Virus record (IMG/VR): IMGVR_UViG_3300021197_001883
Location: 1 to 28,248 of that record
From: a virus
Reading direction: 5' to 3' (one strand)
Length of the DNA: 28,248 nt
The notes under the pieces were generated by a model. That model saw nothing but the letters and a program-made list of their open reading frames with translations. It was not told the origin of the DNA and ran no database searches. How positions within the stretch are numbered: position 1 is the stretch's first letter; each line of letters begins with the position of its first letter. A program made the position numbers and the translations under genes. Positions 1-14,171 of this stretch are shown one piece after another.

Positions 1-24
1 AAACTAAAACAAACATAGGCACAA

Positions 25-33
25 TAAAGGAGG
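25..33 (+). promoter_or_regulatory. Strong ribosome binding site of the gp32-like gene
   Basis: The bases TAAAGGAGG match the anti-Shine-Dalgarno complement almost perfectly and end 8 bases before the ATG at 42. This is one of the strongest ribosome sites in the window and fits a protein that must be made in large, stoichiometric amounts. Confidence 0.8.
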
Positions 34-41
34 CTTACATT

Positions 42-1037
42 ATGGCATCATTGGCTGAAATAAGAGCGAAGTTGAAATCTCAAGAAGTGAATCGCTCCAC
101 TTCCAACACAGGCGGAGACAACGCCATCTATCCACATTGGAATATATCAGAAGGATCAGAAGCAGTGATCAGATTCTTACCCGATAAGGATACAAACAAT
201 ACATTTTTCTGGACTGAAAGAAACATGATCAAACTACCTTTCGCGGGTATCAAAGGTCAGACTGATTCTAGACCAGTTACAGTGCAAGTACCTTGCATGG
301 AGATGTATGGCAAGACTTGCCCAGTACTAACAGAAGTTAGACCATGGTTCAAAGACAAGAGCATGGAAGACATGGGCAGAAAATATTGGAAAAAGAAAAG
401 TTACATTTTCCAAGGTTTTGTAACAACGAATCCATTAGCAGAGGACTCAACTCCTGAGAACCCAATCAGAAGATTCATAATTGGACCTCAGATCTTTAAC
501 ATTATCAGAGGAGCATTGATGGATCCAGAGATGGAAGAAATGCCAACTGATTACGTGAAAGGTGTGGACTTCAGGATCACTAAAACAACTAAAGGTGGTT
601 ATGCTGACTACTCAACATCAAAATGGTCAAGAAGAGAACGTGCATTAGATGAGGCAGAGAGAGCCGCAATCGAAACACATGGTTTACACAACCTAGGTGA
701 CTTCAGACCAAAAGAGCCAACAGAAGCAGAGGTTAAAATAATCGCAGAATTATTTGCGAAATCTGTGGAAGGTGAGGCCTATGATCTTGAGCAGTATGGA
801 CAGTACTTCAGACCGGCGGGCGTGGCTTACCAAGGTAAACCACAGGTAGCAGTACCAACAGCATCGGCTCCAGCGGCAACACCAGTGGCAGAGGCGGCTC
901 CTACAGCGGCACCTGTGACTGCAACTGCACCAGCACCACAACCTGAGGCGGCACCAGCAGTGGTGGCTCCAGCAGGCGACAGTGCCAAAAGAGCAGAAGA
1001 TATCTTGAAGTTGATTAGATCAAGACAAGCAAAATAA
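42..1037 (+). CDS. 32: Single-stranded DNA-binding protein, T4 gp32-like
   Basis: This 331-residue protein coats single-stranded DNA during phage replication, recombination and repair. In T4 it works with UvsX, UvsY, the helicase and the polymerase. The N-terminal basic segment and the core, with C85 and a C-P-V turn at C93 followed by an LTEVRPWF stretch, resemble gp32 of marine T4-like phages. T4 gp32 binds zinc through one His and three Cys. Here the Cys-Pro-Val-Cys turn has become Cys-Pro-Val-Leu, and no His precedes C85 at the expected place, so the zinc site looks degraded. Residues about 265-312 form an Ala/Pro/Val-rich low-complexity linker, and the protein ends in a short charged helix finishing in basic residues rather than the acidic tail of T4 gp32. 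The start is fixed by the strong ribosome site. The uvsX-uvsY neighbourhood supports the call. Confidence 0.9.
   Translation: MASLAEIRAKLKSQEVNRSTSNTGGDNAIYPHWNISEGSEAVIRFLPDKDTNNTFFWTERNMIKLPFAGIKGQTDSRPVTVQVPCMEMYGKTCPVLTEVRPWFKDKSMEDMGRKYWKKKSYIFQGFVTTNPLAEDSTPENPIRRFIIGPQIFNIIRGALMDPEMEEMPTDYVKGVDFRITKTTKGGYADYSTSKWSRRERALDEAERAAIETHGLHNLGDFRPKEPTEAEVKIIAELFAKSVEGEAYDLEQYGQYFRPAGVAYQGKPQVAVPTASAPAATPVAEAAPTAAPVTATAPAPQPEAAPAVVAPAGDSAKRAEDILKLIRSRQAK
834..980 (+). repeat. Low-complexity Ala/Pro/Val-coding tract in the gp32-like gene
   Basis: Imperfect repeats of GCN, CCA and GTN codons encode a disordered Ala/Pro/Val linker between the DNA-binding core and the C-terminal helix. It resembles the flexible linker of bacterial SSB more than the acidic tail of T4 gp32. 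Spurious reverse-strand open frames arise here because of the base bias. Confidence 0.7.
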
Positions 1038-1044
1038 TCTGACA

Positions 1045-1851
1045 ATGTTATACGAGATCGACGGCAAACCCGCATTTCGTATCGACCTTTATGATCACAC
1101 CGTCGCCCATAAATGGAAAAAACTGATTGAATCCATTTATGTTGGCGATGGTGAGGACATAGACCATGTAAGATCGTTCTTTGGTTTACGTACACGTGAT
1201 GAGATCAAAGACATGTTGCTAGATTCTGTTACGAGCATCAACAGTTTTTTAAAAAAGCATTTTATACAAATACCAAAGGAAATTGATTGGGATGACCAAA
1301 ACTTGTACAACACCTTGCACATAGCATTTGAAAAACTATCCGGAGAGTTTGACAATACTACTAAACTTATGAAAATTGCACCTGAAGATATAAAAGAGGA
1401 CATTAGAAATTTAAATTTTTGTGTACATGCATTAGAACATGAACCAAGCAAAAACATATTACCTATACAGTGGACTAAAAAAAGAGAAATAATGCCACGA
1501 ATCAAACTAACTGATGATGAGTATGATTTAATACAATTTCATACAACAAAAAACGAAGTATATCTAGCATACAACGAGCTAGGGAAAAATTATATTGATC
1601 TATGGCGAGATAACTTACCAGTTGATTACAATGCAACAAAAAATAATCATTACATAGGTGCTGACATCCAAATTTCACTCGCAGACAAAGAAAATATTTT
1701 TGATAAAGAATTTATAGATTGGTGTAAGGATAACAAAATCAATCATGAAGAGAAGAAAAACGGAATTGGTTTATTGCCAATTGGTAAAATAGAGTCTATG
1801 AACATAGAACATTTGACAAAAGAGAGCAAAGCAGATATAATAATAAGATGA
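1045..1851 (+). CDS. Conserved phage protein of unknown function between gp32 and uvsX
   Basis: I do not recognise a family for this 268-residue soluble protein. It is rich in Lys, Asp, Glu and Ile, has no signal peptide or membrane segment, and looks mostly helical in its middle (about residues 45-130). It begins 7 bases after the gp32 stop with no clear Shine-Dalgarno, so it is probably co-transcribed with gp32. Its last codons carry a perfect sigma70-like promoter (1813-1841), and its TGA overlaps the ATG of the next small gene. The position suggests a role in DNA metabolism, but that is inference from neighbourhood only. Confidence 0.75.
   Translation: MLYEIDGKPAFRIDLYDHTVAHKWKKLIESIYVGDGEDIDHVRSFFGLRTRDEIKDMLLDSVTSINSFLKKHFIQIPKEIDWDDQNLYNTLHIAFEKLSGEFDNTTKLMKIAPEDIKEDIRNLNFCVHALEHEPSKNILPIQWTKKREIMPRIKLTDDEYDLIQFHTTKNEVYLAYNELGKNYIDLWRDNLPVDYNATKNNHYIGADIQISLADKENIFDKEFIDWCKDNKINHEEKKNGIGLLPIGKIESMNIEHLTKESKADIIIR
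1813..1841 (+). promoter_or_regulatory. Perfect consensus sigma70-type promoter ahead of uvsX
   Basis: TTGACA at 1813-1818 is separated by exactly 17 bases from TATAAT at 1836-1841, matching both consensus hexamers fully. Transcription would begin near 1848, at or beside the ATG of the small membrane peptide and about 109 bases before uvsX. It lies wholly within the 3' end of the preceding coding sequence. I infer an early, host-polymerase promoter for the uvsX-uvsY group. Confidence 0.8.
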
Positions 1852-1946
1852 AAAAGAAAATACAAAAGGCTGTCGAATGGATATTGTACAAACAAATACC
1901 TGCATGGATGTTGATTGTAGCGATTATCCTTTGGATAGTATTATAA
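1848..1946 (+). CDS. Small single-span membrane peptide upstream of uvsX
   Basis: This short frame encodes 32 residues: a basic start (MKKKIQK), a short amphipathic stretch, then a hydrophobic C-terminal segment of about 14 residues (roughly 18-32, ending in WIVL) long enough to enter a membrane. Its ATG overlaps the previous TGA as ATGA, a junction used throughout this genome, and its stop is 10 bases before the uvsX ATG. The predicted start of transcription from the consensus promoter falls at its first codon, so it may be translated leaderless or from the longer upstream transcript. It could be a membrane-acting phage peptide or a leader affecting uvsX translation. No function can be assigned. 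Confidence 0.5.
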   Translation: MKKKIQKAVEWILYKQIPAWMLIVAIILWIVL

Positions 1947-1956
1947 GGAAAATAAA

Positions 1957-3051
1957 ATGACAAAAGTATTCGACGCAACAAAATTTAGAAAGAGCATAAC
2001 AAAATCAATCCAAGGATTGGGTATTGGATTCAGCGATCCCACAGATTGGATCAGCACAGGAAATTACGCATTGAACTATTTAATGACCAGTGATTTCAAC
2101 AAAGGAATTCCGCTAGGTAAAGTAACTGTACTTGCAGGCGAATCAGGAGCAGGAAAAAGTTACATAGCATCAGGTAACATAATCAAGAATGCACAGGACC
2201 AAGGCATCTTTGTCATCTTAATCGACACAGAGAACGCACTAGACGAGAAATGGTTACAGGCATTGAAAGTGGACACATCGGAAGACAAACTTTTGAAGTT
2301 AAGCATGTCCATGGTTGATGACGTGGCAAAAACTGTTTCCGAGTTCATGAAAGGTTACAAAGAGCAACATGCAGACAACAAAGAAGGTGCACCTAAAGTG
2401 CTATTTGTCATAGACAGTTTGGGCATGATGCTTACACCAACAGACGTTAATCAGTTTGAAGCAGGTGACATGAAAGGTGACCTGGGTAGAAAACCCAAGG
2501 CTTTGACAGCACTTGTGAGAAACTGTGTGAACATGTTTGGTAGTTGGAACGTGGGACTTATAGCAACCAACCACACATATGCATCACAGGACATGTTTGA
2601 TCCAGATGACAAGATATCAGGTGGACAAGGATTTATCTATGCATCAAGTATTGTTGTTGCAATGAAGAAACTTAAATTAAAAGAAGACGAAGCAGGTAAT
2701 AAAGTTACCGATGTGAGGGGTATCAGAGCCGCTTGTAAAGTTATGAAGACTCGATATGCAAAACCGTTTGAAGGTGTACAAGTCAAGATTCCGTATGAAA
2801 CAGGAATGAATCCGTACAGCGGACTTGTAGACTTGTTTGAGAAAAAGGGTCTATTAGTTCAACAAGGTAACAGACTGAAATACATTGACAAGACAGGTAA
2901 AGAACACATTGAATTCAGGAAAGCATGGGTAGGTGATAAATTAGATATGATAATGGCAGAGTTCAAAGAAGAGGTACCTACAGAAATAGAAGACACGGAC
3001 GCCCCTATCGAGGTCGAAACAGAAACAAAGACAAAGAGTAAAAAAGAATAA
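1957..3051 (+). CDS. uvsX: RecA-like recombinase UvsX
   Basis: This is the 364-residue phage strand-exchange recombinase. It forms ATP-dependent filaments on ssDNA and drives recombination-dependent replication. The P-loop GESGAGKS is at residues 61-68 and the Walker B strand ends in VIDSLG at about 151-156. A TNHTYAS stretch after the second core strand corresponds to the DNA-binding loop region of RecA folds. The length is slightly below T4 UvsX (about 390). An AAGGAAA ribosome site precedes the ATG. The C-terminus (after about residue 340) is an acidic then lysine-rich tail, possibly for contacts with gp32 or UvsY. The stop overlaps the next gene as TAATG, and UvsY follows one gene later. 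Confidence 0.95.
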   Translation: MTKVFDATKFRKSITKSIQGLGIGFSDPTDWISTGNYALNYLMTSDFNKGIPLGKVTVLAGESGAGKSYIASGNIIKNAQDQGIFVILIDTENALDEKWLQALKVDTSEDKLLKLSMSMVDDVAKTVSEFMKGYKEQHADNKEGAPKVLFVIDSLGMMLTPTDVNQFEAGDMKGDLGRKPKALTALVRNCVNMFGSWNVGLIATNHTYASQDMFDPDDKISGGQGFIYASSIVVAMKKLKLKEDEAGNKVTDVRGIRAACKVMKTRYAKPFEGVQVKIPYETGMNPYSGLVDLFEKKGLLVQQGNRLKYIDKTGKEHIEFRKAWVGDKLDMIMAEFKEEVPTEIEDTDAPIEVETETKTKSKKE

Positions 3052-3284
3052 TGATAGACTTTAAGCATGAAGACGTAGAACGTTTATGGAATTCCATTGT
3101 GCATTACGTACCAGAAAGACAAAAACTAGACATGGCTATTGACTTCATTGCTACCCTCGAAGATATTGGTGTGGAGCACGATGTCTTAAAGGGATCTGCA
3201 GAGCTTGATCCAAAACTAGAGGAAGCCGTCAACACTGTGTTCGAGGAAGACGAAGAGTCAGACGGATACGGCGAAGATGATTAA
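3051..3284 (+). CDS. Small acidic protein between uvsX and uvsY
   Basis: This 77-residue protein is strongly acidic, ending in a run of Glu and Asp (about residues 66-77). Its helical body starts with a basic/aromatic stretch. It is coupled at both ends: its ATG overlaps the uvsX stop (TAATG) and its stop overlaps the uvsY start by 8 bases. The coupling suggests equimolar production with the recombinase and its loader. I know of no function; an acidic DNA-mimic or UvsX-binding role is speculation. Confidence 0.7.
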   Translation: MIDFKHEDVERLWNSIVHYVPERQKLDMAIDFIATLEDIGVEHDVLKGSAELDPKLEEAVNTVFEEDEESDGYGEDD

Positions 3285-3738
3285 TTGGTACAACGAAGTC
3301 AGCAGGAACCTAGACAAGATACCAGACTGCGTGGCATACTTTGACAAGGAATTGATCGAGGCTAAAAAGCAGTGCAAGATATACGGTAACCTAGAGAGGG
3401 CCAGTGCATCATTGCCTGGAATAGTGGAAGAAAGATTTAGCCAACTGCAACAACTGGAAGCGATCCTGGAATACCTAAACATAGAATTACGTAGATTAAG
3501 ATCAAAAACCTTCAGGAAATATTTAGAAAATTACAACAGAGCACTATCAAGCAGAGATGCAGAGAAGTACGTGGACGGCGAAGATGATGTCGTGGACATG
3601 GACAAAATTATAAATGACTTCGCACTGATAAGGAATCAATGGTTGGGCATCACCAAAGGCTTAGATCAGAAACAATGGCAGATAACCAATATCGTCAAAC
3701 TGAGGGTCGCGGGAATGGAAGATGCCGACATCAAATAG
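3277..3738 (+). CDS. uvsY: Recombination mediator UvsY-like protein
   Basis: UvsY loads UvsX onto ssDNA covered by gp32. This 153-residue protein is close to T4 UvsY in size (137) and shows the family's helical character. A central segment at about residues 79-98 with an FRKYLENYNRALSSRD core, followed by an acidic loop and a second helical part with NQWLGITKGL, matches my memory of UvsY homologues in marine phages. It sits just downstream of uvsX, as expected. The start ATG at 3277 lies inside the end of the preceding gene, and its own end overlaps the HAD gene by 17 bases. Confidence 0.8.
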   Translation: MINWYNEVSRNLDKIPDCVAYFDKELIEAKKQCKIYGNLERASASLPGIVEERFSQLQQLEAILEYLNIELRRLRSKTFRKYLENYNRALSSRDAEKYVDGEDDVVDMDKIINDFALIRNQWLGITKGLDQKQWQITNIVKLRVAGMEDADIK

Positions 3739-4348
3739 GATAATACTCACAGACGTAGACGGTGTGCTGTTGGAGTGGGAACACCACTTCACTAAATGGA
3801 TGTTGCAACGAACACTGTTTGACGAGAGAGGTGCGAGATATCACCCACACAAACTACTACCAGACAAACAGAACACATACGAAATGGCAGAACGTTTTGG
3901 TGTGACCAAAGACGAGATCAGGAAGCACATCAGGGAGTTCAACAGGAGTGCTTGGATGGGAACACAGAGACCGATACTGGAGTCACAGACTTGGGTAAAA
4001 CTGTTGGCGGCCGAGGGGTGGACGTTTATACCGATCACGTCCCAGACATCTGACATACCAGCACAACAGTTGCGTAAGAGAAGACTGGGAGAACTGTTTG
4101 GGGATCATGTCTTCACAAATTACCATATTCTAGGCACAGGTGCTGACAAAGACAGTGCTTTGGCGGAGTTCCATGCTACCGGACTGTATTGGGTAGAGGA
4201 CAAGCCAAAGAACGCTGTAGCCGGGCTCAAATACGGTTTAAAGCCCATATTAATAGACCACCCATACAATCAAGATTTCAATCATCCTGACATTATACGT
4301 GTAAGTAATTGGAAAGACATACACCAAATAGTTTCAGGAAGAAAATGA
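3722..4348 (+). CDS. HAD-superfamily phosphatase
   Basis: This 208-residue protein has the haloacid dehalogenase fold motifs. Motif I is DVDGV with the nucleophile D11 and acid/base D13; motif II is the ITS at 105-107; K143 fits the motif III lysine; and an ED pair at 159-160 fits the Mg-binding motif IV. A helical cap insertion lies between motifs I and II (about residues 20-95). Such phage HAD proteins are often nucleotidases or sugar-phosphate phosphatases. The substrate cannot be read from sequence. It overlaps uvsY by 17 bases and the next glycosyltransferase by 4 (ATGA), so it may serve nucleotide metabolism or the glycan island it adjoins. Confidence 0.8.
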   Translation: MPTSNRIILTDVDGVLLEWEHHFTKWMLQRTLFDERGARYHPHKLLPDKQNTYEMAERFGVTKDEIRKHIREFNRSAWMGTQRPILESQTWVKLLAAEGWTFIPITSQTSDIPAQQLRKRRLGELFGDHVFTNYHILGTGADKDSALAEFHATGLYWVEDKPKNAVAGLKYGLKPILIDHPYNQDFNHPDIIRVSNWKDIHQIVSGRK

Positions 4349-5019
4349 AAATTTACGTAGGGCACGACAGCAGAGAAGACATAGCATACCAGGTTTGCGA
4401 ACATTCGATCAAGCGTAGAGACCCGTCAGCAGAAATAATTCCCCTCAAACAAAAACAGATGCGAGACCAAGGACTGTATACCCGGCATGTGGACAAATTG
4501 GCGTCAACTGAGTTCACATTCACTAGGTTCTTCGTGCCATACATGAACGACTTCAAGGGATGGGCGGTGTTCTGTGACTGTGATTTCCTTTGGAAGATAC
4601 CAAGCCATGAGCTTGTGAAATACTGTGACGACTCAAAAGCAGTTGTTGTAGTACAACATGACTACACCCCAAAAGAAACAACAAAGATGGACGGACAGGT
4701 GCAAACTTCATATCCCAGGAAGAACTGGTCAAGCATGGTATTATGGAATTGTGAACATCCTAAGAACAAAATACTAACACCTGAATTACTCAACGAAGAA
4801 TCACCAAAGTTCCTACACAGGTTCAGTTGGCTAGATGATAGCGAAATAGGATCATTACCTTTAGAATATAACTGGCTAGTAGGCTGGTACAAAGAACCAA
4901 AAGATGGTGTACCTAAAATACTACACTACACAGAAGGTGGTCCATGGTTTGATGGTTACCGAGACTGTGAGTACAGCGATGACTGGAAGAAAGAACTAAT
5001 AAACTTATTCAGTTCGTGA
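4345..5019 (+). CDS. GT8-like glycosyltransferase
   Basis: This is a 224-residue GT-A fold transferase. The N-terminus (MKIYVGHDSRED) matches the first strand and nucleotide-binding loop of glycogenin-like GT8 proteins. The FTRFFVPYM stretch (59-67) and the metal-binding DCD at 78-80 follow in order, and a late HYTEGGPW segment supplies the C-terminal His-Gly pair typical of the family. I chose the ATG at 4345 because it forms an ATGA overlap with the HAD gene; an earlier in-frame ATG at 4309 would bury 36 more bases in that gene. It would add a sugar from a nucleotide-sugar donor to an unknown acceptor. It is the first gene of the glycan island and converges on the next gene with a 15-base overlap. 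Confidence 0.75.
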   Translation: MKIYVGHDSREDIAYQVCEHSIKRRDPSAEIIPLKQKQMRDQGLYTRHVDKLASTEFTFTRFFVPYMNDFKGWAVFCDCDFLWKIPSHELVKYCDDSKAVVVVQHDYTPKETTKMDGQVQTSYPRKNWSSMVLWNCEHPKNKILTPELLNEESPKFLHRFSWLDDSEIGSLPLEYNWLVGWYKEPKDGVPKILHYTEGGPWFDGYRDCEYSDDWKKELINLFSS

Positions 5020-5718
5020 TTCTATAAAAGATTTCAAAGCACTGACATCTGCATTTAATGTCCTGTCTCTCACTTTTGTCCATACAAATTGATCTCTTTC
5101 AGAAATATTAAAGTTCTTACGTATTTGTTTACCTGCATTATCGTCTAATATTTTTTTAGCCTTGAATTCTATCGTTGGCAGATAAAGACATCTGTTTAAT
5201 TTACGTGCCACTTTTTGTGTGTATGAGTCAACATGCCAATGCCAAAAATATACAGGTGCAAGATATCCTAATGTGTTAATCCAGTTTTTATGCACGGCAA
5301 AGTGAGCGGCTGGTAATTTCGTGTCACCCCATAATGTAGGAGCATCTGCTAGATCCTTATTCTTTGCCCTACCATCATATGGTACCGCCATCAATATTTT
5401 GTCATCGTAACGATCGAATTCATCAGCAATCATTTTATCCCAATTTTGTGTTCTTACTTGCACGTCATCGCCCATAAGCATCACAATATCGTATGATGCC
5501 TTCTCAGCCATTAAGTTCCAACTATAACAAGTAGATTGATTTGGTCCAATGGTATAATGTTTTTCGTCGAGTAAATCTTTATACTGTTCTAACTTTTCAT
5601 CGTCGTCGTTTAGATAAAATAGAAACTCTGTATCACCTTTTTGCGTTTCTGTTGCACTGTCAACCAATCGTTTTGCTAGTTCGGGCCTACCTCTTGATGG
5701 ACAACAAAAAGAAATCAT
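5005..5718 (-). CDS. GT2-like glycosyltransferase (GT-A fold)
   Basis: This is a 237-residue protein with the GT-A layout: an N-terminal MISFCCPSRGRP strand and loop, a YLNDDD acidic patch at 35-40, and VMLMGDDV at 79-86 in the place of the DxD metal site. A KHYTIGPNQS loop lies between them. The start at 5718 is preferred over a TTG at 5736 because it forms an ATGA overlap with the epimerase and has GGAAGAAG just upstream. It is the last gene of the leftward glycan operon. The donor and acceptor are unknown. Confidence 0.7.
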   Translation of the reverse strand: MISFCCPSRGRPELAKRLVDSATETQKGDTEFLFYLNDDDEKLEQYKDLLDEKHYTIGPNQSTCYSWNLMAEKASYDIVMLMGDDVQVRTQNWDKMIADEFDRYDDKILMAVPYDGRAKNKDLADAPTLWGDTKLPAAHFAVHKNWINTLGYLAPVYFWHWHVDSYTQKVARKLNRCLYLPTIEFKAKKILDDNAGKQIRKNFNISERDQFVWTKVRDRTLNADVSALKSFIESRTE

Positions 5719-6719
5719 ATCAATTTCTTCTTCCAAGTATCTGGGGTCTGGTCATTAATAATTTCCAATGGTAGGTGATATTGAAATTTCTTTGTGCCTC
5801 TAGTCCTAATGTACTCTGCTGTCTTTTTTACTGACTGTCGCATGTTTGTTGCTGTACTGTAACCTAATAATTCTCTTGCTTTGTCTGACGAACACACTGC
5901 TAGTTTGACTTCTTTAGGCCTGTCTTTGTGGTGTATAGGATCTAAATTAAGTCCTGTTTCGTTTGCACAGGCTTCTGCTAACTCATTGATTGTTATAGGT
6001 TCTTCGTCTGGGCCTATGTTGATTACTTCACCAACTACGTTGTCTTGGAACGCAAGTGCATTCAAACAATACAAACAATCATCTATGTAACTGAAACATC
6101 TTTGCTGTTTGCCATCTCCGTATATGATTGGTTGCTTACCTTGTAACATTCTGTTCAACATGATAGACATAACGTTTCTAAAAGGGTCATCATACTTCTG
6201 TCTTGGTCCAACAATGTTGTGTGGCACAGCGATCACATACTCAACTCCGTGTGTCTCACATAAATTTTTAAGCACATCTTCCCCAGCCTTCTTTGCGATA
6301 CCGTATGGATCCTGGGGACGACACTCGTGGGTTTCTTTGTACGGCATTTCGTCATGATGCCCGTACCTTGCCATACTTGAACAATACACAATACGTTTGA
6401 CTTTGTTCCTTATGGCCGCTGTAATAGTTGTTACCGATGCTTCAAATATATTTCTCGTAACAAGCACAGGAGAAAATACTGACAGTCCTTCGTATGCCGT
6501 TGCGGCAGTATGATAAACTATGTCACAGCCTTCCATGGCCTTGGTCATGTTTTCTAAATCGCAACAATCCACTTGATGGAACTCAACGTTCTGTGGGACA
6601 TTGTCTGTGTATCCACCGATCATGTTATCATTGCCAGCCACTGTGTGACCTTCTGATAGCATCAAATCTGCTAGATGAGAACCTAAGAATCCTGCTACGC
6701 CTGTGATAAAAATTTTCAT
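5715..6719 (-). CDS. NAD-dependent sugar epimerase/dehydratase (extended SDR)
   Basis: This 334-residue enzyme has the extended short-chain dehydrogenase fold acting on nucleotide sugars. The dinucleotide-binding glycine motif GVAGFLG is at residues 7-13, the active-site serine region YCSSM at 112-116, and the catalytic YGIAK with Y139 and K143. The substrate-binding half carries a conserved GDGKQQRCFSYIDD block at about 204-217, as in UDP-glucose 4-epimerase and related enzymes. Length is typical of the family. It probably makes or rearranges a UDP- or GDP-sugar used by the neighbouring transferases. No clear Shine-Dalgarno precedes the ATG, and its stop overlaps the next gene by 4 bases. 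Confidence 0.9.
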   Translation of the reverse strand: MKIFITGVAGFLGSHLADLMLSEGHTVAGNDNMIGGYTDNVPQNVEFHQVDCCDLENMTKAMEGCDIVYHTAATAYEGLSVFSPVLVTRNIFEASVTTITAAIRNKVKRIVYCSSMARYGHHDEMPYKETHECRPQDPYGIAKKAGEDVLKNLCETHGVEYVIAVPHNIVGPRQKYDDPFRNVMSIMLNRMLQGKQPIIYGDGKQQRCFSYIDDCLYCLNALAFQDNVVGEVINIGPDEEPITINELAEACANETGLNLDPIHHKDRPKEVKLAVCSSDKARELLGYSTATNMRQSVKKTAEYIRTRGTKKFQYHLPLEIINDQTPDTWKKKLI

Positions 6720-6738
6720 TTGGAGTATTTAATTTAAG

Positions 6739-7365
6739 TTATACACGGTAAAAAACTTTATCTGGCCAATGCTCCATTAACACTTTGAATCCTAGTGAAT
6801 CCATATACTTCTCTATGTCAATATTGCTACTTCCATATTTTTTAGTATTGTTGTTTAATTCTATCATTAGATACTGTACACTCTCTAAAGTCTTTGTTGC
6901 ACCTTTCAACACTTCCATTTCATATCCTTCAACATCTATCTTTATCAGGTCAACCTTTTCATAATTCAAATAATCTAGTGTGATCATCCTGATGTTTCCT
7001 TCTTTATTGACTCTTTTTGCCTGTGTAAAATCGTCCTCGGTCAATGATATTTCTTTTATTTCTGAACCAACGGCCTCCATTCTTGGATCGCAATTGATAG
7101 TACAGTTACGTTGTAAACATTCAAAATGTATCTTGTCTGGTTCGAAAGCAATCACTTTTTTTGCATATGGTTCAATGGCCTTTGTCCATGTTCCACACCA
7201 CGCACCTATGTCGATCACTGTGTTAAATTTTTTATTCTGACTATCGCAGTAATCTATGAACTTCATTAGACATTTATTTTGGGTGAATGGTTGGCCTGCC
7301 TTCCATTGTTCTAAGTGTATATCATTTGATGGCACCCATAAACCGTTTACCTTTTCTATATTCAT
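6739..7365 (-). CDS. FkbM-family methyltransferase
   Basis: This is a 208-residue SAM-dependent methyltransferase. Motif I reads VIDIGAWCGTWT (50-61), the acidic residue that binds the SAM ribose is in FEPD (74-77), and the FkbM-type block LIKIDVEGYEMEVLKGA follows in the second half. FkbM proteins O-methylate sugars or polyketides, and in glycan clusters usually methylate sugar hydroxyls. It overlaps the upstream gene as ATGA and lies two genes before the end of the leftward operon. Methylation of a terminal sugar is a likely role but remains inference. Confidence 0.85.
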   Translation of the reverse strand: MNIEKVNGLWVPSNDIHLEQWKAGQPFTQNKCLMKFIDYCDSQNKKFNTVIDIGAWCGTWTKAIEPYAKKVIAFEPDKIHFECLQRNCTINCDPRMEAVGSEIKEISLTEDDFTQAKRVNKEGNIRMITLDYLNYEKVDLIKIDVEGYEMEVLKGATKTLESVQYLMIELNNNTKKYGSSNIDIEKYMDSLGFKVLMEHWPDKVFYRV

Positions 7366-8174
7366 AGTATTCCCTTGTCCATCAGTATTTCTACTGCTGT
7401 GCCATTTTCAATCTCTTCTGGTGTGAACTGTTGATATGCCAGACTGTACAACCAAGGTTCTGGCCCGCCGTAGTAAGGATTCTCAATGTCTGCTAGTTCA
7501 ACGTTGCCAACATCGACTGCAAAACTCTTATCATCACAGAACACAGGTATTCCCTCACACATTGCCTCCACTGCCGCGATCGAACAACTGGTTACCACAC
7601 ACCAGGCCTCCTTGAGGTCCTCGGATAGGGGTACTTTCGCTTCACTTGGTCCTGATGTACCCCTCCCCCTAGGCTTGTGTCGAAGTCGGATAGGTCTGTC
7701 CGTGTATCTCTTTACCTGCTCTATGGTCTCGTTTGTCCAATTGGGTCGACCAAGGTAGTTGTGTATGCCTGTGCTACTAGGACATACTAAAACATACTTG
7801 CCAGCGAAATTTGGTGCTTTGATCTTCATTCCAAACTTTTCAAATCTATCGGCCTTGCAATTTTTAATGTAAGGAACGTGAATGGCATTCTTGCACACAC
7901 GCCAATAATGATTGTCAGGTTTCAGGTTATTGTTATCAAATCTTCCAAAGTAAGGTGTGTCTGTGAACCAGTAGTTGTGATTACGTGCTTCCGACTTCTT
8001 GACCATTTCTCTGTTGTTGCCAACGAACCCCCAGAACATGCTGTTGCTTACAGGATCTGTTTCGGTTGCGTTGTCTAATTTTGTTATCTGATCAGGCCAT
8101 GACTTCTCGACACCGTTGAACACTTCCCATGCTTTGCTATTTTTATTATTAAATGGTGCGTAGATTGTTAGCAT
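7362..8174 (-). CDS. GT-B-like glycosyltransferase, island paralogue 1
   Basis: This 270-residue protein is one of four related proteins in the island. It has TDRPIRLRHKP (158-168), TSCS (195-198), GIPVFC (208-213) and a tail LAYQQFTPEEIENGT (245-259), each matched in the same order in the genes at 10677, 11476 and 15096. The arrangement of a T-D/S-R-x-I-x-x-R-x-x-P block, then an S/N-S helix start and a G-I/V-P strand, resembles the C-terminal half of GT-B capsule enzymes of the KpsC/KpsS and glycerophosphotransferase type. The His of the RPHP block is displaced (RHKP). It is closest to the 10677 protein, sharing a YF-x-D and YF block followed by HYW and KN near residues 68-96. It overlaps the SGNH gene by 26 bases. 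Confidence 0.65.
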   Translation of the reverse strand: MLTIYAPFNNKNSKAWEVFNGVEKSWPDQITKLDNATETDPVSNSMFWGFVGNNREMVKKSEARNHNYWFTDTPYFGRFDNNNLKPDNHYWRVCKNAIHVPYIKNCKADRFEKFGMKIKAPNFAGKYVLVCPSSTGIHNYLGRPNWTNETIEQVKRYTDRPIRLRHKPRGRGTSGPSEAKVPLSEDLKEAWCVVTSCSIAAVEAMCEGIPVFCDDKSFAVDVGNVELADIENPYYGGPEPWLYSLAYQQFTPEEIENGTAVEILMDKGIL

Positions 8175-8811
8175 CTATAAATTCCATAAGTTGTTCAGCC
8201 CACTGCCTGTGACCTTCTGCCGATGGATGAGGATCACTTTTACTGCTTATCATTCCTTTGTCTAAAATAAATTCGTATTGACTGAGATTAGGGCTAAAAA
8301 ATCTATTCATGTTTATGGAGTCTTTGATAATTTGGAAATCAAACATGGCAGACCCAAAATCATTTGGCAGAGAATTGTACATCACATATGGTATTTTCTT
8401 CCTTTCAAAATAGTTTTGCAGATCAAAAACACTATCCAAGAATCTCATTGTCATGTTATTTTCAATATCCCAACCTGTGTTTTTCCTTACGAAATCAACA
8501 TTGTCTAGAGTTTTCCAGGTACGCCATGTAAGGTTAGTTCCAGGCATCCTGCCTTTTTTATGTCCGTCGTTGGTAACGTAGTCATTTCGGCTGGCACTGG
8601 ACCAACCTATGACAGCGAAGTGCTTATCACGTTTGTGACGTTCCAACCACACCTTGGTGGTGAAACTAATCCTGTCATTTCCTCTGCCGCCCATAGCAAA
8701 GTTGACCAAAGGCATGTCATATTTTTCTGCAAGTATTTTCGTGGTAAATGTGTCAACACCGTCTTTGGGACGACTTGTAAGAAAACTGCAACCATTTGAA
8801 AATAAAAACAT
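8149..8811 (-). CDS. SGNH/GDSL-like hydrolase
   Basis: This 220-residue protein has the ordered SGNH signature. NGCSF (6-10) carries the candidate nucleophile S9, GGRGND (41-46) supplies the Gly/Asn block, and DPHPSAEGH (193-201) supplies the C-terminal Asp/His pair. The family hydrolyses esters or transfers acyl groups, and in glycan loci often adds or removes acetyl groups on sugars. Phage members with an NGCS block are usually uncharacterised. It is the first gene of the leftward operon, reading from a divergent promoter region 9-38 bases upstream. The acyl substrate is unknown. Confidence 0.7.
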   Translation of the reverse strand: MFLFSNGCSFLTSRPKDGVDTFTTKILAEKYDMPLVNFAMGGRGNDRISFTTKVWLERHKRDKHFAVIGWSSASRNDYVTNDGHKKGRMPGTNLTWRTWKTLDNVDFVRKNTGWDIENNMTMRFLDSVFDLQNYFERKKIPYVMYNSLPNDFGSAMFDFQIIKDSINMNRFFSPNLSQYEFILDKGMISSKSDPHPSAEGHRQWAEQLMEFIDANNLRTI

Positions 8812-8824
8812 AGTAGTGTATTAT
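8796..8824 (+). promoter_or_regulatory. Candidate sigma70-type promoter, rightward half of the glycan island
   Basis: TTGAAA (8796-8801) and TATTAT (8819-8824) each match five of six consensus bases with a 17-base spacer. The predicted start near 8831 leaves a leader of about 12 bases before the ATG at 8843. Its -10 box overlaps that of the leftward promoter. Confidence 0.55.
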
Positions 8825-8849
8825 AACATAATTATTAATTAAATGTTAG
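8820..8849 (-). promoter_or_regulatory. Candidate sigma70-type promoter, leftward half of the glycan island
   Basis: Read on the minus strand, a perfect TATAAT lies at 8825-8820 and CTAACA (four of six) at 8849-8844 with an 18-base spacer. Transcription would start about at the ATG at 8811 or a few bases before it. The overlap with the rightward -10 means polymerase could not occupy both at once. Confidence 0.45.
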
Positions 8850-9931
8850 CAAAAAACATAAACTCGCTGAAGTATTTCCTGAATCGTTGGGAAACAGTAG
8901 ACCCCGAGTACGACTACACAGTACCGTACCATCCAGCGATTGATCCGCACTTCACAAGTTTACCAACATTTGTAGCGGAGTTTCATAATTGTAGAGTGCA
9001 TACGTGCCCATTGTTGTTGACTAGGGAAAATAAGTTAATCACAGAACACGTGTGGAAACTGACGCACAAGAGCAGACACAAGCCACACAAGAGCCACAAG
9101 CTCTGGACCGAATGGGATGACAACGTAGATTTAGATCTACCACCTGCTACTCAATTTTTCCATGAGAAAGACACCTACGTATGGCTACCTGTGGACGATG
9201 ACAGCAAAAGTAATCCATGGCACATCTGGATTGATGTCATATCTAAGTTCAGGTTGTTAGAGAAAAGATGGTCAACGAACTTCAGTAGGTACTGTTTTAT
9301 ATTGGCAAATCACAGTCCGTATTTTGAAAAGGTATGCAAAGAACTTTTCCCAAACGTCAAGATAGTCGTAATGAAAAAAGGTGAGACATGGCAATTCAAA
9401 CATCTCATAGTGCCCAGCATGAGTAATGTGAGAGATGGTATAACAACGCCGGCTCTTGCCCCGTGGTTACGACATTTCAAAGGATTGGCTAATATCAAAG
9501 GAATCAAACCCCATCGGAAAATAGTCGTACTGAGACCAGGTGCTGTCACTAGAAGAATACAAAACTCTGACGAATTGCTATTGAACCTCAAAGGATGGGA
9601 GACTGTGGTATTGGAGAAAATGTCCATCCGAGAACAAATAAAAACATTCGCCGAGGCTTCACACGTGGTGGCGGCACATGGTGCAGGCCTCACTAATTTG
9701 TTATGGTGCCAGCCCGGAACCAAAGTATTAGAGATAAATCAAAAAAGCGAAATACACAAAAAGGTTTACCCATTGCTGTCACACAATCTAAATCTAGAAC
9801 ATAAATTATATCTAGCAGATGTGGTGCCAATCCCTAAAGAAAATGGGAAAAAACCCAAAGGCATTAAAAGATTCAGTGACATGATAAAATTTAAAATTAA
9901 CATACCCGAAATCATGGAGCACTTAGAATGA
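8843..9931 (+). CDS. GT61-like glycosyltransferase (DUF563)
   Basis: This 362-residue protein carries the hallmark C-terminal block of family 61 transferases at about residues 273-296: an A-A-H-G-A-G-L-T-N-L segment, then a P-G-T-K-V-L-E-I strand. That block forms the nucleotide-sugar pocket of this GT-B group. An upstream VVLRPGAVTRRI segment matches the strand with a conserved Arg, and FHEKDTYVWLPV in the N-terminal half matches the early domain. Family members add xylose, GlcNAc or other sugars. The ATG follows a candidate promoter and opens the rightward operon. Its stop overlaps the next gene as ATGA. Confidence 0.85.
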   Translation: MLAKNINSLKYFLNRWETVDPEYDYTVPYHPAIDPHFTSLPTFVAEFHNCRVHTCPLLLTRENKLITEHVWKLTHKSRHKPHKSHKLWTEWDDNVDLDLPPATQFFHEKDTYVWLPVDDDSKSNPWHIWIDVISKFRLLEKRWSTNFSRYCFILANHSPYFEKVCKELFPNVKIVVMKKGETWQFKHLIVPSMSNVRDGITTPALAPWLRHFKGLANIKGIKPHRKIVVLRPGAVTRRIQNSDELLLNLKGWETVVLEKMSIREQIKTFAEASHVVAAHGAGLTNLLWCQPGTKVLEINQKSEIHKKVYPLLSHNLNLEHKLYLADVVPIPKENGKKPKGIKRFSDMIKFKINIPEIMEHLE

Positions 9932-10677
9932 ACCTATCAGTGTTACAAAAGAAACCTGAACTTGTACTAGAGCCTTATCCACATTTCGTGATCGAGGACG
10001 CACTACCCCAAGATGTGTACGAACAACTTGAGAAGGAATGGCCGGAACAACAACTGCTGTCCACCGAGCCATTTGATTCGGGTATATGTTACAGGTTGAA
10101 AGCAGATGAGATGTTGAAGCCGGGAAAAGTATCCAATCTATGGAAAAAATTTACCGAGTATCACACTTCTATTGAGTTTTATAAGGAAATGACAAAAGTG
10201 TTTGGCGAGTTGGTCCCACATGTCGACGACCTTACGTTGAGTCCAAGAGGCTGGGACACAGGCAATGACAAGATAGGAACCGACTGTCAGACAGTGATGC
10301 ACAAGCCCATCGACTTCAGTTCAAGGACTGCACACATAGACAACCCTAGGGAGATATACGCGGCCTTACTTTACATGCCTTACATGGATGATAAGAGCAC
10401 CGGTGGTGACTTTCAAATACACGAAACACATGATAACATTTTGGAAGTGAATAAAAACGGCGGAAGAGAAGTAAATGAAAAAGCAGGAAAAGTTGTCAAG
10501 ACAGTTCCTTATAAACCCAACACATTAGTTGTATTTTGCAACAATTCAACAAGGTGTGTACACAGTGTATCCTCTAGAAAAGATGCCGTGCTACACAGAA
10601 GGAGCGTTAATATAATTGCTGAATTTAACAGAGCCGCGAAATGTAAAATGTTTGAAGTAAAGGAAAACAGGAAGTAA
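9928..10677 (+). CDS. 2-oxoglutarate/Fe(II)-dependent oxygenase-like protein
   Basis: This 249-residue protein has the double-stranded beta-helix metal triad: H136 and D138 in AHIDNP, and the distal H212 in RCVHSVSS, with an R-R pair at 224-225 placed to bind 2-oxoglutarate. The GGDFQIHE strand (159-166) and the PNTLVVF strand (197-203) are typical of prolyl-hydroxylase-like 2OG enzymes. The N-terminal PYPHFVIEDALP motif is common in phage and cyanobacterial members found with glycosyltransferases. It likely hydroxylates a sugar, lipid or protein acceptor in this pathway; the substrate is unknown. Its stop overlaps the next gene as TAATG. Confidence 0.8.
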   Translation: MNLSVLQKKPELVLEPYPHFVIEDALPQDVYEQLEKEWPEQQLLSTEPFDSGICYRLKADEMLKPGKVSNLWKKFTEYHTSIEFYKEMTKVFGELVPHVDDLTLSPRGWDTGNDKIGTDCQTVMHKPIDFSSRTAHIDNPREIYAALLYMPYMDDKSTGGDFQIHETHDNILEVNKNGGREVNEKAGKVVKTVPYKPNTLVVFCNNSTRCVHSVSSRKDAVLHRRSVNIIAEFNRAAKCKMFEVKENRK

Positions 10678-11486
10678 TGCTGTCAGGTATACACACAACC
10701 AAACCACGTACACAACGGTATGTAGATGCCTTTGTTAATGGTTCGGGCAAGGGAAGGATTTATCAGTTTCGTGACCTGAAAGGGTTACCAAAAGAAAATC
10801 TGACCATGTACGGCATACTGGCAGGATCTGGTGAAGTGTATAAATGGTGTGAGAAGGATAAAAGAGATTTTTATTTCATGGATCACGGATATTTTACAAA
10901 TGCACATGACAGTCCACACTGGTTACGTATAACCAAGAACAAACACTGTCAGAATATATTACAACAGAGACCCACAGACAGGTATGAGAAACATTTCAAA
11001 AGAGATATTAAACCATGGAACAAGGGTAAGAAAATTCTTGTCCTGCCACCCACCAATGCAATAGCGAACTTCTTTGATGCCACCGACTGGTTGGACAACA
11101 CAGTGAAGATCCTTAAACAGAACACTGACAGAGAAATAGACGTAAGGGAAAAACCATACAATCCAACAATTGAAATTGATCATGTTGGTGCAACGGTAAA
11201 AGTGGACAGGCCAACTGTACACAAGGGCAATATCAATTGGGGCGATTACCATGCAACAGTGACCTACAACTCCAACACCATGGTGGCCAGTTTGACTAAC
11301 GGAGTACCTGTGTTCTGTGATCCAGAGAACAGTGCGGCCGCACCCATATCTGAAACAGATTTCACAAAAATAGAAACACCTAAATACGGAGACAGGATTG
11401 CATTATTTTCAAGTCTAGCGTATAATAATTGGACACTACAAGAAATGGCCAACGGAACAGCGTGGAGGATGTTAAATGAAAGTTGA
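10677..11486 (+). CDS. GT-B-like glycosyltransferase, island paralogue 2
   Basis: This 269-residue protein belongs to the same family as the genes at 7362, 11476 and 15096. It has TDREIDVREKP (150-160), YNS (197-199), GVPVFC (209-214) and LAYNNWTLQEMANGT (247-261). Its N-terminal FYFMDHGYF and HWLRITKN (about 65-88) pair with those of the 7362 protein, so these two form the closest pair. The R-E-K-P form lacks the His seen in the 11476 and 15096 members (R-P-H-P). No membrane segment or signal peptide is visible, so it is probably a cytoplasmic transferase. It overlaps the following paralogue by 11 bases, suggesting local duplication and divergence. Confidence 0.65.
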   Translation: MLSGIHTTKPRTQRYVDAFVNGSGKGRIYQFRDLKGLPKENLTMYGILAGSGEVYKWCEKDKRDFYFMDHGYFTNAHDSPHWLRITKNKHCQNILQQRPTDRYEKHFKRDIKPWNKGKKILVLPPTNAIANFFDATDWLDNTVKILKQNTDREIDVREKPYNPTIEIDHVGATVKVDRPTVHKGNINWGDYHATVTYNSNTMVASLTNGVPVFCDPENSAAAPISETDFTKIETPKYGDRIALFSSLAYNNWTLQEMANGTAWRMLNES

Positions 11487-12459
11487 GATATTTAGAAGGA
11501 CAGTGAAGGATCGTAAACGTGGCAACAGTTACGAGTTGCTTTACCATCTCAAGGAAGGCATAGAGGCCGCGGGCGATGAAGCGGTCATAGTCAATGAGAA
11601 CAGGTCCGGACCAACTGTAGAAGGCGAGATGACTCCTACTGCACCCATGGCGGCCATGTTTGGATATGGTGGCGACAAGCAGATGCATCACACCAAAGGC
11701 AGACGTAGGGAACTTGCCAATAATTGTAGAGAAAAGAAAATTCCATTGATAACATTTGACGGAGGACTTTTATCTAGTTTTGGTAATGTGTCAACATCAC
11801 CTGATCATCATTTCAGGGTGTCTTTGTACACACCCATGAACGACGGTAACTTTCTATCTGACAACAGTCCAAGCGATCGTTGGGAAATGATGGTGAAAAA
11901 ATTCAAAGTTAAGTATGAACCATGGAGGAAGTCTGATCAAGACGATCCTGTAATATTCGTACTGCAACCAAAAGACAACTGGAGCATGAACGAGTTGGAT
12001 CCCATAGAATGGTTTAACAAAGTTTATGAAAGGCTTAGACCTGCCACTGATAGGAAGTTCATAGTCCGTCCGCATCCAAACCATGTCGCATCCATTGTCG
12101 CACGAAAGGATGACTTTCCAGATGATGTTGAACTTCAGTACACACATCAACATTTTGCGGGAGATGAAAAGAAGTTTTACAGATTCCATTTCCAGGAAGC
12201 GATCGCGAATGCACACGCTGTGGTTACGCACAACTCCACTGCCAGTGTTGACAGTTGCATAAGGGGAATACCAACTTTTTGCACATCAGATCTTGCACTG
12301 TGTTGGGAAGTGTGTAACAAGGATCTTAACGATATAGAAACACCCAAGAGGCCAGACAGGACACAGTGGGCATACGACCTAGGATATAAACTGTGGAGCA
12401 TACAAGAGATAAGAGACGGCACAGTTTACAAAAGGTTCAAATCAAAACTGGGTCTGTAA
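11476..12459 (+). CDS. GT-B-like glycosyltransferase, island paralogue 3
   Basis: This 327-residue protein is the longest of the four island paralogues. The extra length is mainly in the N-terminal domain, which has a Lys/Arg-rich start and a glycine loop GYGGDKQMHH (63-72). The C-terminal half has TDRKFIVRPHP (191-201) with the complete R-P-H-P block, THNS (251-254), GIPTFC (264-269) and LGYKLWSIQEIRDGT (302-316). The R-P-H-P plus H-x-S-x-x-x-x-x-x-x-x-G-I-P combination is typical of capsule and teichoic-acid-type GT-B enzymes, which supports a transferase role. Its stop overlaps the asparagine-synthetase-like start as TAATG. Confidence 0.65.
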   Translation: MKVEIFRRTVKDRKRGNSYELLYHLKEGIEAAGDEAVIVNENRSGPTVEGEMTPTAPMAAMFGYGGDKQMHHTKGRRRELANNCREKKIPLITFDGGLLSSFGNVSTSPDHHFRVSLYTPMNDGNFLSDNSPSDRWEMMVKKFKVKYEPWRKSDQDDPVIFVLQPKDNWSMNELDPIEWFNKVYERLRPATDRKFIVRPHPNHVASIVARKDDFPDDVELQYTHQHFAGDEKKFYRFHFQEAIANAHAVVTHNSTASVDSCIRGIPTFCTSDLALCWEVCNKDLNDIETPKRPDRTQWAYDLGYKLWSIQEIRDGTVYKRFKSKLGL

Positions 12460-14171
12460 TGTGCGGCATATACGGTATCACGGACAAAGATCCCGAATTT
12501 ATAAAACAATATATCGAAATATGTAAACACAGAGGGCCCGACGGATCAGACATATGGACATCTGACCATGTTACCCTTGGTCATAATCTACTGAGCATAA
12601 TGGCCGAGCCAAACAAATCTCAACAGCCATGGGAGACCCCAAAAGGCAATAGGCTTGTGTACAATGGAGAAATTTTTAATTACAACGAACTTGTTAAAAA
12701 ATACAAAAATTTTACAAATTCTACAGGGTGCGACACAGAACTGTTAGCATGGGGACTGGACGAACACGGAATAAATTTTATCAATGAGATCGATTCCATG
12801 CATGGCTTTGCCTATTACGACCTGCAAAGAAACACAATTACCCTGAGCAGGGATCATGCGGGCATTAAACCATTATACTACGCAGAAATAGACAAAGGCC
12901 TTGTGTTTGCATCAGAACTGAAAGGCATGCTCGACATTGTTCCCAACGCCCGAACACTTGATAACCTTGCCTGTAGTATGATGACCCGGACCGGCACAAA
13001 TCCGTTGAGAAACACCATGTTCACAAATATCAAAAAAGTTTTGCCAGGCGAAACCATTGTGTATGATTTAAAAATGAGAACTTTGAACTGTGCCCAAAGA
13101 ATATACATTAAACCGAATGCTGATAAAGATTACTCAAAAAATGAACTCAAAGAAATGTTTGCTCAGACAGTAAGGCAGTGTGCCATAGGGCAAAGGAAAA
13201 TTGGAGTGTTCTTGAGTGGTGGTTTAGATTCTTCTGTTGTGGCCTATGAACTACAACAACTAACAAACAGTGTAAACACTTTCACAAACAGAATTACCCC
13301 GGAAGTACGGGCAGATGAAGATTTCAACAGCGATTCAAAAGTAGCAAAAAGGTTTGCATCCGAACAAAATTTTAATCATCATGATGTTGTTATATCACCG
13401 TCCGAATATCTATCAGCGTGGGAAGATAGTGTATGGTACATGGAACAGCCAAACTACAATCCAAGCAATCCAATGTACTGCTACACGAACAAGTATCTAG
13501 CAGATAATGACATAGTAGTTACGTTGGCAGGAGACATGGGTGACGAACTGTTTGGTGGATACCCAAAATACAAAAACTTATATAATAGTGTAAACAAACC
13601 AAACTCCTGGAGAGAACTTTTACAACTATGGCTAGAAAGGGTTAAAAAAGGCAGTTATGTGTTGACAGAGCAACCAATCAATGACGAGACAATCCTAGAC
13701 GAACTTGAAAAATGTTACAGTGACGAACTGTGGAATCCGGCAGACCCAACTGCATCATACATGGCATTGGACTGTGTTGCACAGGTCCCAGAGTTATTTT
13801 TCGCACGAAACGATTACTATGGCATGGCTTACGGAATGGAGGGTAGATTCCCTTTGGCATCAAAAAAATTCATGCAGTATTGCTTGAACATCAAAACAAA
13901 ACACAAGTTTAAAAACAGCACCAAAGATATGGTAAAGAAAGCATACGAAAAATTTTTACCTGGATACATCGTCAACAAAGAAAAAACAGGATGGACAGTA
14001 CCGATCGGGTATTGGTTGATGGATAATGTTAGTGACCACTTGACCAGTGTCTACGACCAAGAGATAGGCAAGGAAAGGCTTCACTTACAAGGAAGGTCAC
14101 AGAAAGCAGGCAAACGTTTGATGCCGGAGTGGCAAGTAAAAAACTGGAAGGAAAAATATCAAATTAAATAA
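12459..14171 (+). CDS. asnB: Glutamine-dependent asparagine synthetase-like amidotransferase
   Basis: This is a 570-residue class II amidotransferase. The start at 12459 is chosen because it leaves MCGIYG, whose Cys becomes the N-terminal catalytic residue; the longer frame from 12393 would bury it. The glutaminase domain shows HRGPDG (24-29), NGEIFN (69-74) and the GCDTE and ASELK blocks. The synthetase domain has the ATP pyrophosphatase loop SGGLDSS (253-259) and, later, GDMGDELFGGYPKY. Length matches bacterial AsnB. True AsnB makes asparagine; homologues inside O-antigen and capsule loci instead amidate uronic acids or related carboxyl sugars. Its place between glycosyltransferase genes favours that second role, but sequence cannot decide. 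Confidence 0.92.
   Translation: MCGIYGITDKDPEFIKQYIEICKHRGPDGSDIWTSDHVTLGHNLLSIMAEPNKSQQPWETPKGNRLVYNGEIFNYNELVKKYKNFTNSTGCDTELLAWGLDEHGINFINEIDSMHGFAYYDLQRNTITLSRDHAGIKPLYYAEIDKGLVFASELKGMLDIVPNARTLDNLACSMMTRTGTNPLRNTMFTNIKKVLPGETIVYDLKMRTLNCAQRIYIKPNADKDYSKNELKEMFAQTVRQCAIGQRKIGVFLSGGLDSSVVAYELQQLTNSVNTFTNRITPEVRADEDFNSDSKVAKRFASEQNFNHHDVVISPSEYLSAWEDSVWYMEQPNYNPSNPMYCYTNKYLADNDIVVTLAGDMGDELFGGYPKYKNLYNSVNKPNSWRELLQLWLERVKKGSYVLTEQPINDETILDELEKCYSDELWNPADPTASYMALDCVAQVPELFFARNDYYGMAYGMEGRFPLASKKFMQYCLNIKTKHKFKNSTKDMVKKAYEKFLPGYIVNKEKTGWTVPIGYWLMDNVSDHLTSVYDQEIGKERLHLQGRSQKAGKRLMPEWQVKNWKEKYQIK

Follow-up and report, generated by a model that had tools for sequence, protein, structure and literature searches.

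A predicted promoter in the last codons of an upstream gene and a conserved 32-residue peptide ahead of uvsX in a marine T4-like phage

A 32-aa small open reading frame (smORF) directly upstream of uvsX is, judging from its conservation in relatives, a real gene, and it is best read as encoding a single-helix membrane microprotein that is translated from a leaderless mRNA. The window, i.e. the whole stretch of DNA analysed, is a 28,248-base virus record carrying a T4-type recombination block (gp32-like, uvsX, uvsY), with helicase and primase genes further along, beyond this block. The predicted promoter of the smORF sits within the 3' end of a 268-aa ORF, a placement absent from an earlier, sequence-only reading of the same DNA. 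The peptide represents a conserved gene of uncultured marine phages without a Pfam, PHROGs or NCBIfam family above cut-off.

Sequence sets

Relatives of the smORF were collected by searching viral contigs with seven aligned peptides as the query, and the best 80 of 158 confirmed relatives were taken; the relatives are at least these, as a pattern scan of contigs contributed further ones. Another set behind the collection of loci comprised the best 80 of at least 600 matches. Collapsing identical upstream-plus-ORF sequences gave 81 rows, the window among them. For profile matches that started at a codon other than ATG, a neighbouring in-frame ATG was taken as the start. The 81-row tables (positions, gaps and Shine-Dalgarno pairing of the smORF) predate loci added later (best 80 of 129, and 15 contigs found by promoter pattern), which enter the counts for the 268-aa gene, the UvsX tree, the arm pairs, the stem controls, the uvsX starts and the hairpins by locus. 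Six of the 15 promoter-pattern contigs hold the 268-aa gene; the other nine (L345, L347-L350, L352-L355) were dropped, the pattern lying in unrelated frames.

Results

A consensus promoter within the end of the 268-aa gene

The gene order and the promoter elements of the window are listed in Table 1. The consensus TTGACA-17-TATAAT claimed by the sequence-only reading was confirmed at 1813-1841, with 12 of 12 bases matching, as was the end of the smORF 10 nt before uvsX, which starts at 1957. This promoter is the sole 12/12 site in the scanned positions 1-14000 and, on both strands of the whole window, the sole perfect match with hexamers 16-18 nt apart; 0.015 perfect sites per window are expected (400 simulations of Markov-1 sequences of the same composition). 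A TG before the -10 element was looked for in the window and is absent. The usual place of a transcription start is the 7th base after the -10 element, and in the window this base is the A of the smORF ATG. On this transcript uvsX is predicted to be the second gene.

Table 1. Features of the gp32-uvsX-uvsY region of the window.
Feature	Position	Strand	Remarks
gp32-like single-strand DNA binding protein	42..1037	+	PHROG 1192, 1e-62
268-aa ORF	1045..1851	+	last codons hold the promoter; TGA stop overlaps smORF start as ATGA
-35 element TTGACA	1813..1818	+	Leu-Thr codons (TTG ACA) of the 268-aa ORF
Spacer, 17 nt	1819..1835	+	no inverted repeat around -35; stem 2 bp (row S_L081 = window)
-10 element TATAAT	1836..1841	+	letters T-ATA-AT within codons of the 268-aa ORF
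Predicted +1	1848..1848	+	A of start codon; 6-nt gap to -10
smORF, 32-aa peptide MKKKIQKAVEWILYKQIPAWMLIVAIILWIVL	ATG1848-TAA1946	+	conserved core WILYKQ(I/V)PAW
Ribosome-binding site of uvsX, AAGGA	1945..1949	+	overlaps smORF stop; dG -6.2
uvsX recombinase	1957..3051	+	PHROG 97, 3.5e-62
uvsY recombination mediator	3277..3738	+	PHROG 231, 1.3e-16

The codons of the 268-aa ORF in the promoter region specify L-T-K-E-S-K-A-D-I-I-I-R-stop; when synonymous codons for these residues were drawn at random, a 12/12 promoter resulted in 576 of 20,000 draws. The ORF of the window had no PHROG match and no Pfam match above the cut-off. Carriers of this family of about 270 aa are the window, L003, L011, L014, L016, L173, L193, L273, L346 and L351; among the loci examined it was seen only ahead of uvsX, its carriers being scattered on the UvsX tree.

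Ten distinct versions of the gene, window included, are 54-93% identical, and all ten have the perfect promoter in their last codons, with the letters of TTG ACA and T-ATA-AT invariant. For amino-acid-identical pairs, codon identity was 329/384 (0.86) in the promoter codons and 4346/7217 (0.60) elsewhere in the gene, with 10-codon windows just upstream of the promoter scoring equally high (0.85-0.89), i.e. the synonymous constraint extends beyond the promoter. Even with constraint reaching beyond the hexamers, the invariance of both is good evidence of a functional promoter, and the window site is best explained as a working promoter of the host-sigma70 type.

The smORF is conserved as a peptide

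In 78 of the 81 rows the smORF lies at most 12 nt upstream of uvsX, with 2-12 nt between its stop and the uvsX ATG. In L064 it is 942 nt from uvsX, and in L161 and L263 the smORF is present with no uvsX found nearby. Pairwise comparison of 75 unique 30-codon cores, over the 2219 pairs with 70-97% identity, gave a pN/pS of 0.24 for the smORF frame, and of 0.83 and 2.5 for the other two frames of the same cores. Entropy by codon position was 0.68/0.31/1.11 (34 clusters), and residues I5, W11, L13, K15, Q16, P18, A19, W20 and W29 were invariant in 14 diverse rows. The sequence-only reading had proposed checking whether the peptide, and not the DNA alone, is conserved in relatives; it is, as substitutions are mostly synonymous. 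Loss of the frame in relatives, named there as evidence against a gene, gave a mixed picture: the 145 unique uvsX loci, among which the peptide searches have raised the share of carriers, comprise 80 with an intact smORF directly before uvsX and 65 without one there. One of these 65 (L153) is the L064 contig. Conservation of the peptide, together with the spacing that is usually kept in relatives, makes the smORF look like a real, overlooked gene.

Longer in-frame extensions occur in some rows, from TTG in L002 and from ATG in L027. Two other frames were considered and rejected. An antisense ORF at 1796-1981 (61 aa) was rejected by inference, because its sequence is complementary to the conserved sense frame, and an overlapping frame at 1877-1960 (27 aa) has residues that vary in relatives, the shifted frames having the pN/pS values given above.

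A tblastn search of 50,697 phage records with the smORF peptide gave no match, with a low-complexity filter that may mask part of the query. Pelagiphages Mosig EXVC030M and HTVC008M and a Melnitz region were rejected as carriers, their profile matches being weak, short and unconvincing (best E 0.0026). Two matches fell in cellular bins, a Pelagibacter MAG and a Rickettsiales MAG, and may be mis-binned viral contigs. The closest UvsX proteins of isolates, from Sinorhizobium and Agrobacterium phages, are 68-69% identical.

The peptide is predicted to form a single helix

The basic start and hydrophobic end described in the sequence-only reading were found again: the N-terminal half is basic and the C-terminal half hydrophobic, with an uninterrupted uncharged, mostly hydrophobic stretch of 16 residues (17-32). 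AlphaFold2 predicts one continuous helix from residue 2 to 31 (mean pLDDT 87.5, pTM 0.36). Searches with the peptide returned no match in Pfam, none better than E 0.1 in PHROGs and none above cut-off in NCBIfam; one match to PDB sequences, at E 0.14, was not of note.

The distance from promoter to start codon falls into two classes

Across the 81 rows the gap between the -10 element and the ATG is 6 nt in 57, 5 nt in 5, 9 nt in 10 and 12 nt in 2, i.e. 5-6 nt in 62; three further rows have no promoter match, two lie in another context and two are cut off. The 57 rows with the same gap are not independent events, because the rows are related. Their 6-nt gaps comprise 22 distinct sequences, of which 20 end in a pyrimidine (T or C) at -1; the window, whose gap ends in G, belongs to the other two.

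Shine-Dalgarno pairing (dG of -4 kcal/mol or lower) was found for none of 30 distinct starts with a gap of 5-6 nt and for all eight with a gap of 9-12 nt; random AT-rich sequences gave 88 of 500. By the same threshold, uvsX starts were positive in 27 of 39 cases after a smORF and in 51 of 54 without one. No ribosome-binding site precedes the smORF of the window (dG -1.5). The lack of a Shine-Dalgarno sequence in the class with gaps of 5-6 nt fits a leaderless mRNA for this class. In the ten rows with a gap of 9 and the two with a gap of 12, the Shine-Dalgarno sequence would lie just upstream of the predicted +1. Translation in these rows would therefore require transcripts that begin earlier or that read through from upstream, and the Shine-Dalgarno sequence may act on the latter. 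Read-through mRNA would also permit coupled translation in the window, by way of the ATGA overlap.

In three rows (L027, L028, L187) no -35/-10 pair can be recognised where the promoter usually lies. Upstream of their smORF there is a GC-rich hairpin of the GTGGGG...CCCCAC type, and a TATA-like stretch before the ATG. A different variation is seen in L020, L025 and L026, where no smORF is present and a 6-nt gap separates the start of uvsX from the -10 of a promoter combined with a hairpin; given this gap, uvsX may be leaderless there. The same layout as at the smORF was also seen in an isolate, Pelagibacter phage Mosig EXVC030M (L281): on the minus strand, at about 7889-7854, TTGACA-17-TATATT has a 17-bp stem around its -35 and an ATG 6 nt after its -10, which by arithmetic is in frame, 15 nt inside the annotated small ORF Mosig_000011, the neighbour of gp45.

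Most relatives carry a predicted promoter combined with a hairpin

In most relatives the gp32-like gene directly precedes the promoter. The usual promoter of relatives, between gp32 and the smORF, has TTGAC looped out between the two arms of a 7-14 bp inverted repeat, as found in 69 of the 82 unique regions containing TTGAC. Where the smORF occurs and the 268-aa gene does not, 73 of 76 loci have a stem of at least 7 bp; where both are missing, 10 of 58 do, and of 10 loci with the 268-aa gene none does (the window, which also has no stem, being left out of this count). The stem arms change together (CAAGGCC, TTGGCTCC, GTGACTAT and others), giving 15 distinct arm pairs, a count that leans towards pairing because the arms were selected for complementarity. 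Stems of at least 9 bp with 4 G-C pairs were found at 70 of 508 distinct TTGAC sites with a -10 element, hairpin-promoters included, and at 7 of 3393 without one. An intrinsic terminator was considered for these hairpins and set aside: a T run (at least 5 T in the 8 nt after the stem) follows 10 of 52 unique hairpins. One hairpin-promoter, with a 9-bp stem and perfect hexamers (L032:4636), stands directly before what by eye is a tRNA-like gene.

The predicted promoter of the smORF is conserved in two unrelated forms, the hairpin form and the form within the 268-aa gene that is found in the window. The window reaches the same spacing through a promoter unrelated to that of most relatives, which codon choice in the 268-aa gene appears to maintain.

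Gene content of the gp32-uvsX interval varies

A quick UvsX tree with 144 rows requires 15 changes of state for the smORF, at least five of them imposed by well-supported branches, and 10 for the 268-aa gene. The arrangement of the window recurs in one other contig, L321, which is the nearest row. In the next nearest rows (L319, L299, L309 and L315) the smORF is 97-100% identical and stands behind a hairpin-promoter, and in L273 a 268-aa gene 92% identical to that of the window stands directly before uvsX with no smORF. The simplest account of these sequences is that recombination in the interval joined the 268-aa gene to the smORF, with the 6-nt distance kept. Modules change often in the gp32-uvsX interval, and the case is one of a promoter kept within the last codons of the adjacent gene. 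More tentatively, and with somewhat less than even confidence, we read it as a sign that recombination can exchange a promoter for an unrelated one in the codons of another gene while the lock on the start is kept.

Among 24 whole records chosen by hand, 12 have a single copy of the peptide, two copies occur in no record, and in the remaining 12 the part covered has no copy; its presence in half of the chosen records marks it as an accessory gene. The smORF also occurs in a second context: in L161 (4001-4099) it lies between a 64-aa ORF (PHROG 1811) and a PHROG-385 'transcriptional regulator', with a glucosaminidase endolysin about 3 kb upstream and a NifU-like gene near. The DNA flanking the smORF of L263 is similar to this context.

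Discussion

A model of expression and function

In the proposed mechanism, a promoter of the host-sigma70 type would start the transcript at the smORF ATG, or within 1-2 bases of it, and the 32-aa microprotein would be translated from the resulting leaderless mRNA, with uvsX as the second cistron, translated from its own ribosome-binding site. The microprotein is expected to adopt an N-in topology, the basic N-terminal half in the cytoplasm and the hydrophobic C-terminal half in the inner membrane. Its gene would be accessory and belong to a single lineage of marine T4-like phages. The product would most likely act early, at the host membrane or on one of the proteins in it, independently of UvsX, with takeover or exclusion of other phages as suggested roles. 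We infer the early timing from the promoter type only, and the exact role from topology and context only. In the window, the 268-aa gene would have taken the position that a hairpin-promoter usually has between gp32 and the smORF, its last codons supplying a promoter at the same 6-nt distance. Taken jointly, expression from a leaderless mRNA with its promoter at the ATG and a role at the membrane appear reasonably probable.

The location of the smORF invites an explanation in terms of recombination itself, in which the peptide would anchor proteins of recombination or replication (UvsX, gp32, UvsY) to the inner membrane and its placement in the gp32-uvsX-uvsY block would reflect this partnership. 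Its close proximity to uvsX in 78 of the 81 unique rows and the flanking uvsY and gp32 of the window agree with such a role, for which the sequence would make the basic N-terminal half available in the cytoplasm. However, an obligate partner would not be expected to change 15 times on the quick UvsX tree, to be missing from its place directly before uvsX in 65 of 145 loci of a carrier-enriched set, or to occur beside a PHROG-385 regulator as in L161, with matching flanks in L263, and we consider the anchor unlikely. The sequence-only reading had left three options for the peptide: a leaderless gene, a leader that tunes uvsX translation, and a membrane-acting early peptide. The first and last are supported jointly by the conserved peptide, the gap of 5-6 nt in 62 of 81 rows, the absence of ribosome-binding sites from all 30 starts of that class and the one helix predicted by AlphaFold2. 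A cis-acting leader, in which uvsX would be loaded with ribosomes according to the translation of the short frame, the peptide itself being inert, would account for the 2-12 nt between smORF stop and uvsX ATG and for the overlap of the uvsX Shine-Dalgarno sequence with the smORF stop in the window. It is disfavoured, and in our view quite improbable, because the amino-acid sequence is conserved (mostly synonymous substitutions, pN/pS 0.24), also in the second context; because uvsX retains a ribosome-binding site of its own, in the window (dG -6.2) and in 27 of 39 cases after a smORF; and because two contigs have no uvsX nearby, while in L064 it is 942 nt away.

A single hydrophobic helix, the endolysin some 3 kb upstream in L161 and a weak NCBIfam match to spanin2 (best E 0.022, in 9 of 14 rows, below the cut-off) would also suit a small lysis-related protein, be it a holin, an antiholin or spanin-like. 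Spanins are characterised by a periplasmic part and a lipobox, and the hydrophobic C-terminal tail of the peptide comes with neither. A hydrophobic helix can yield such weak matches, as one row matched SecE (0.025, likewise below the cut-off), and the usual site of the smORF is a recombination block behind a strong sigma70-type promoter and not a lysis cassette; a lysis function therefore seems quite improbable. That promoter match and frame arose by chance, with no transcript start and an untranslated frame, could be argued from the shortness of the frame and from the perfect promoters that arose in 576 of the 20,000 synonymous draws for the last codons of the 268-aa gene. Against the 0.015 sites expected per window, the promoter letters invariant in all ten versions of that gene and the coding conservation in 75 unique sequences, this is extremely improbable.

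Comparison with known systems

Small single-helix membrane proteins are a general class in phages and bacteria. With about 30 aa, a basic N-terminus and a hydrophobic C-terminus the smORF peptide resembles them, but it is without a Pfam, PHROGs (E 0.1) or NCBIfam match by which it could be placed in a family.

The site in the window shares with PuvsX of T4 its position directly before the uvsX transcription unit. The T4 promoter is of the middle class, its -10 perfect and its -35 weak in homology (PMC2988021); in the window both hexamers are perfect and the smORF separates the promoter from uvsX.

In most relatives the combination of a sigma70-type promoter and a stem-loop at a junction with variable gene content is reminiscent of PeSL, the promoter early stem-loop elements of T4-type phages, which are mentioned in PMC4503421 (citing Arbiol 2010, Comeau 2014). 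Candidate differences in the relatives are the -35 in the loop, the mostly absent T run and a -10 that is mostly 5-6 nt from the ATG. A literature search, with the primary PeSL papers outside its reach, returned no paper on this peptide or promoter. The window site has the sigma70-type promoter at a gene junction, and the gene content of the interval varies on the UvsX tree; there is no second such site within the window. As the stem-loop overlapping the promoter, present in 73 of 76 smORF loci without the 268-aa gene, is absent, the window site is not classed as PeSL.

The closest parallel for the predicted mode of translation is found in Caulobacter, for which leaderless mRNAs are described as common (375) and Alphaproteobacteria as able to translate them (PMC4117421). 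The likeness lies in a predicted +1 at the A of the ATG and the lack of a Shine-Dalgarno sequence; the case in the window differs in that the gene is a phage gene and its transcript start is predicted from sequence. If leaderless initiation is true, these phages offer a natural series, from gaps of 5-6 nt without a ribosome-binding site to gaps of 9-12 nt with one, in which one can ask when a phage gives up Shine-Dalgarno initiation.
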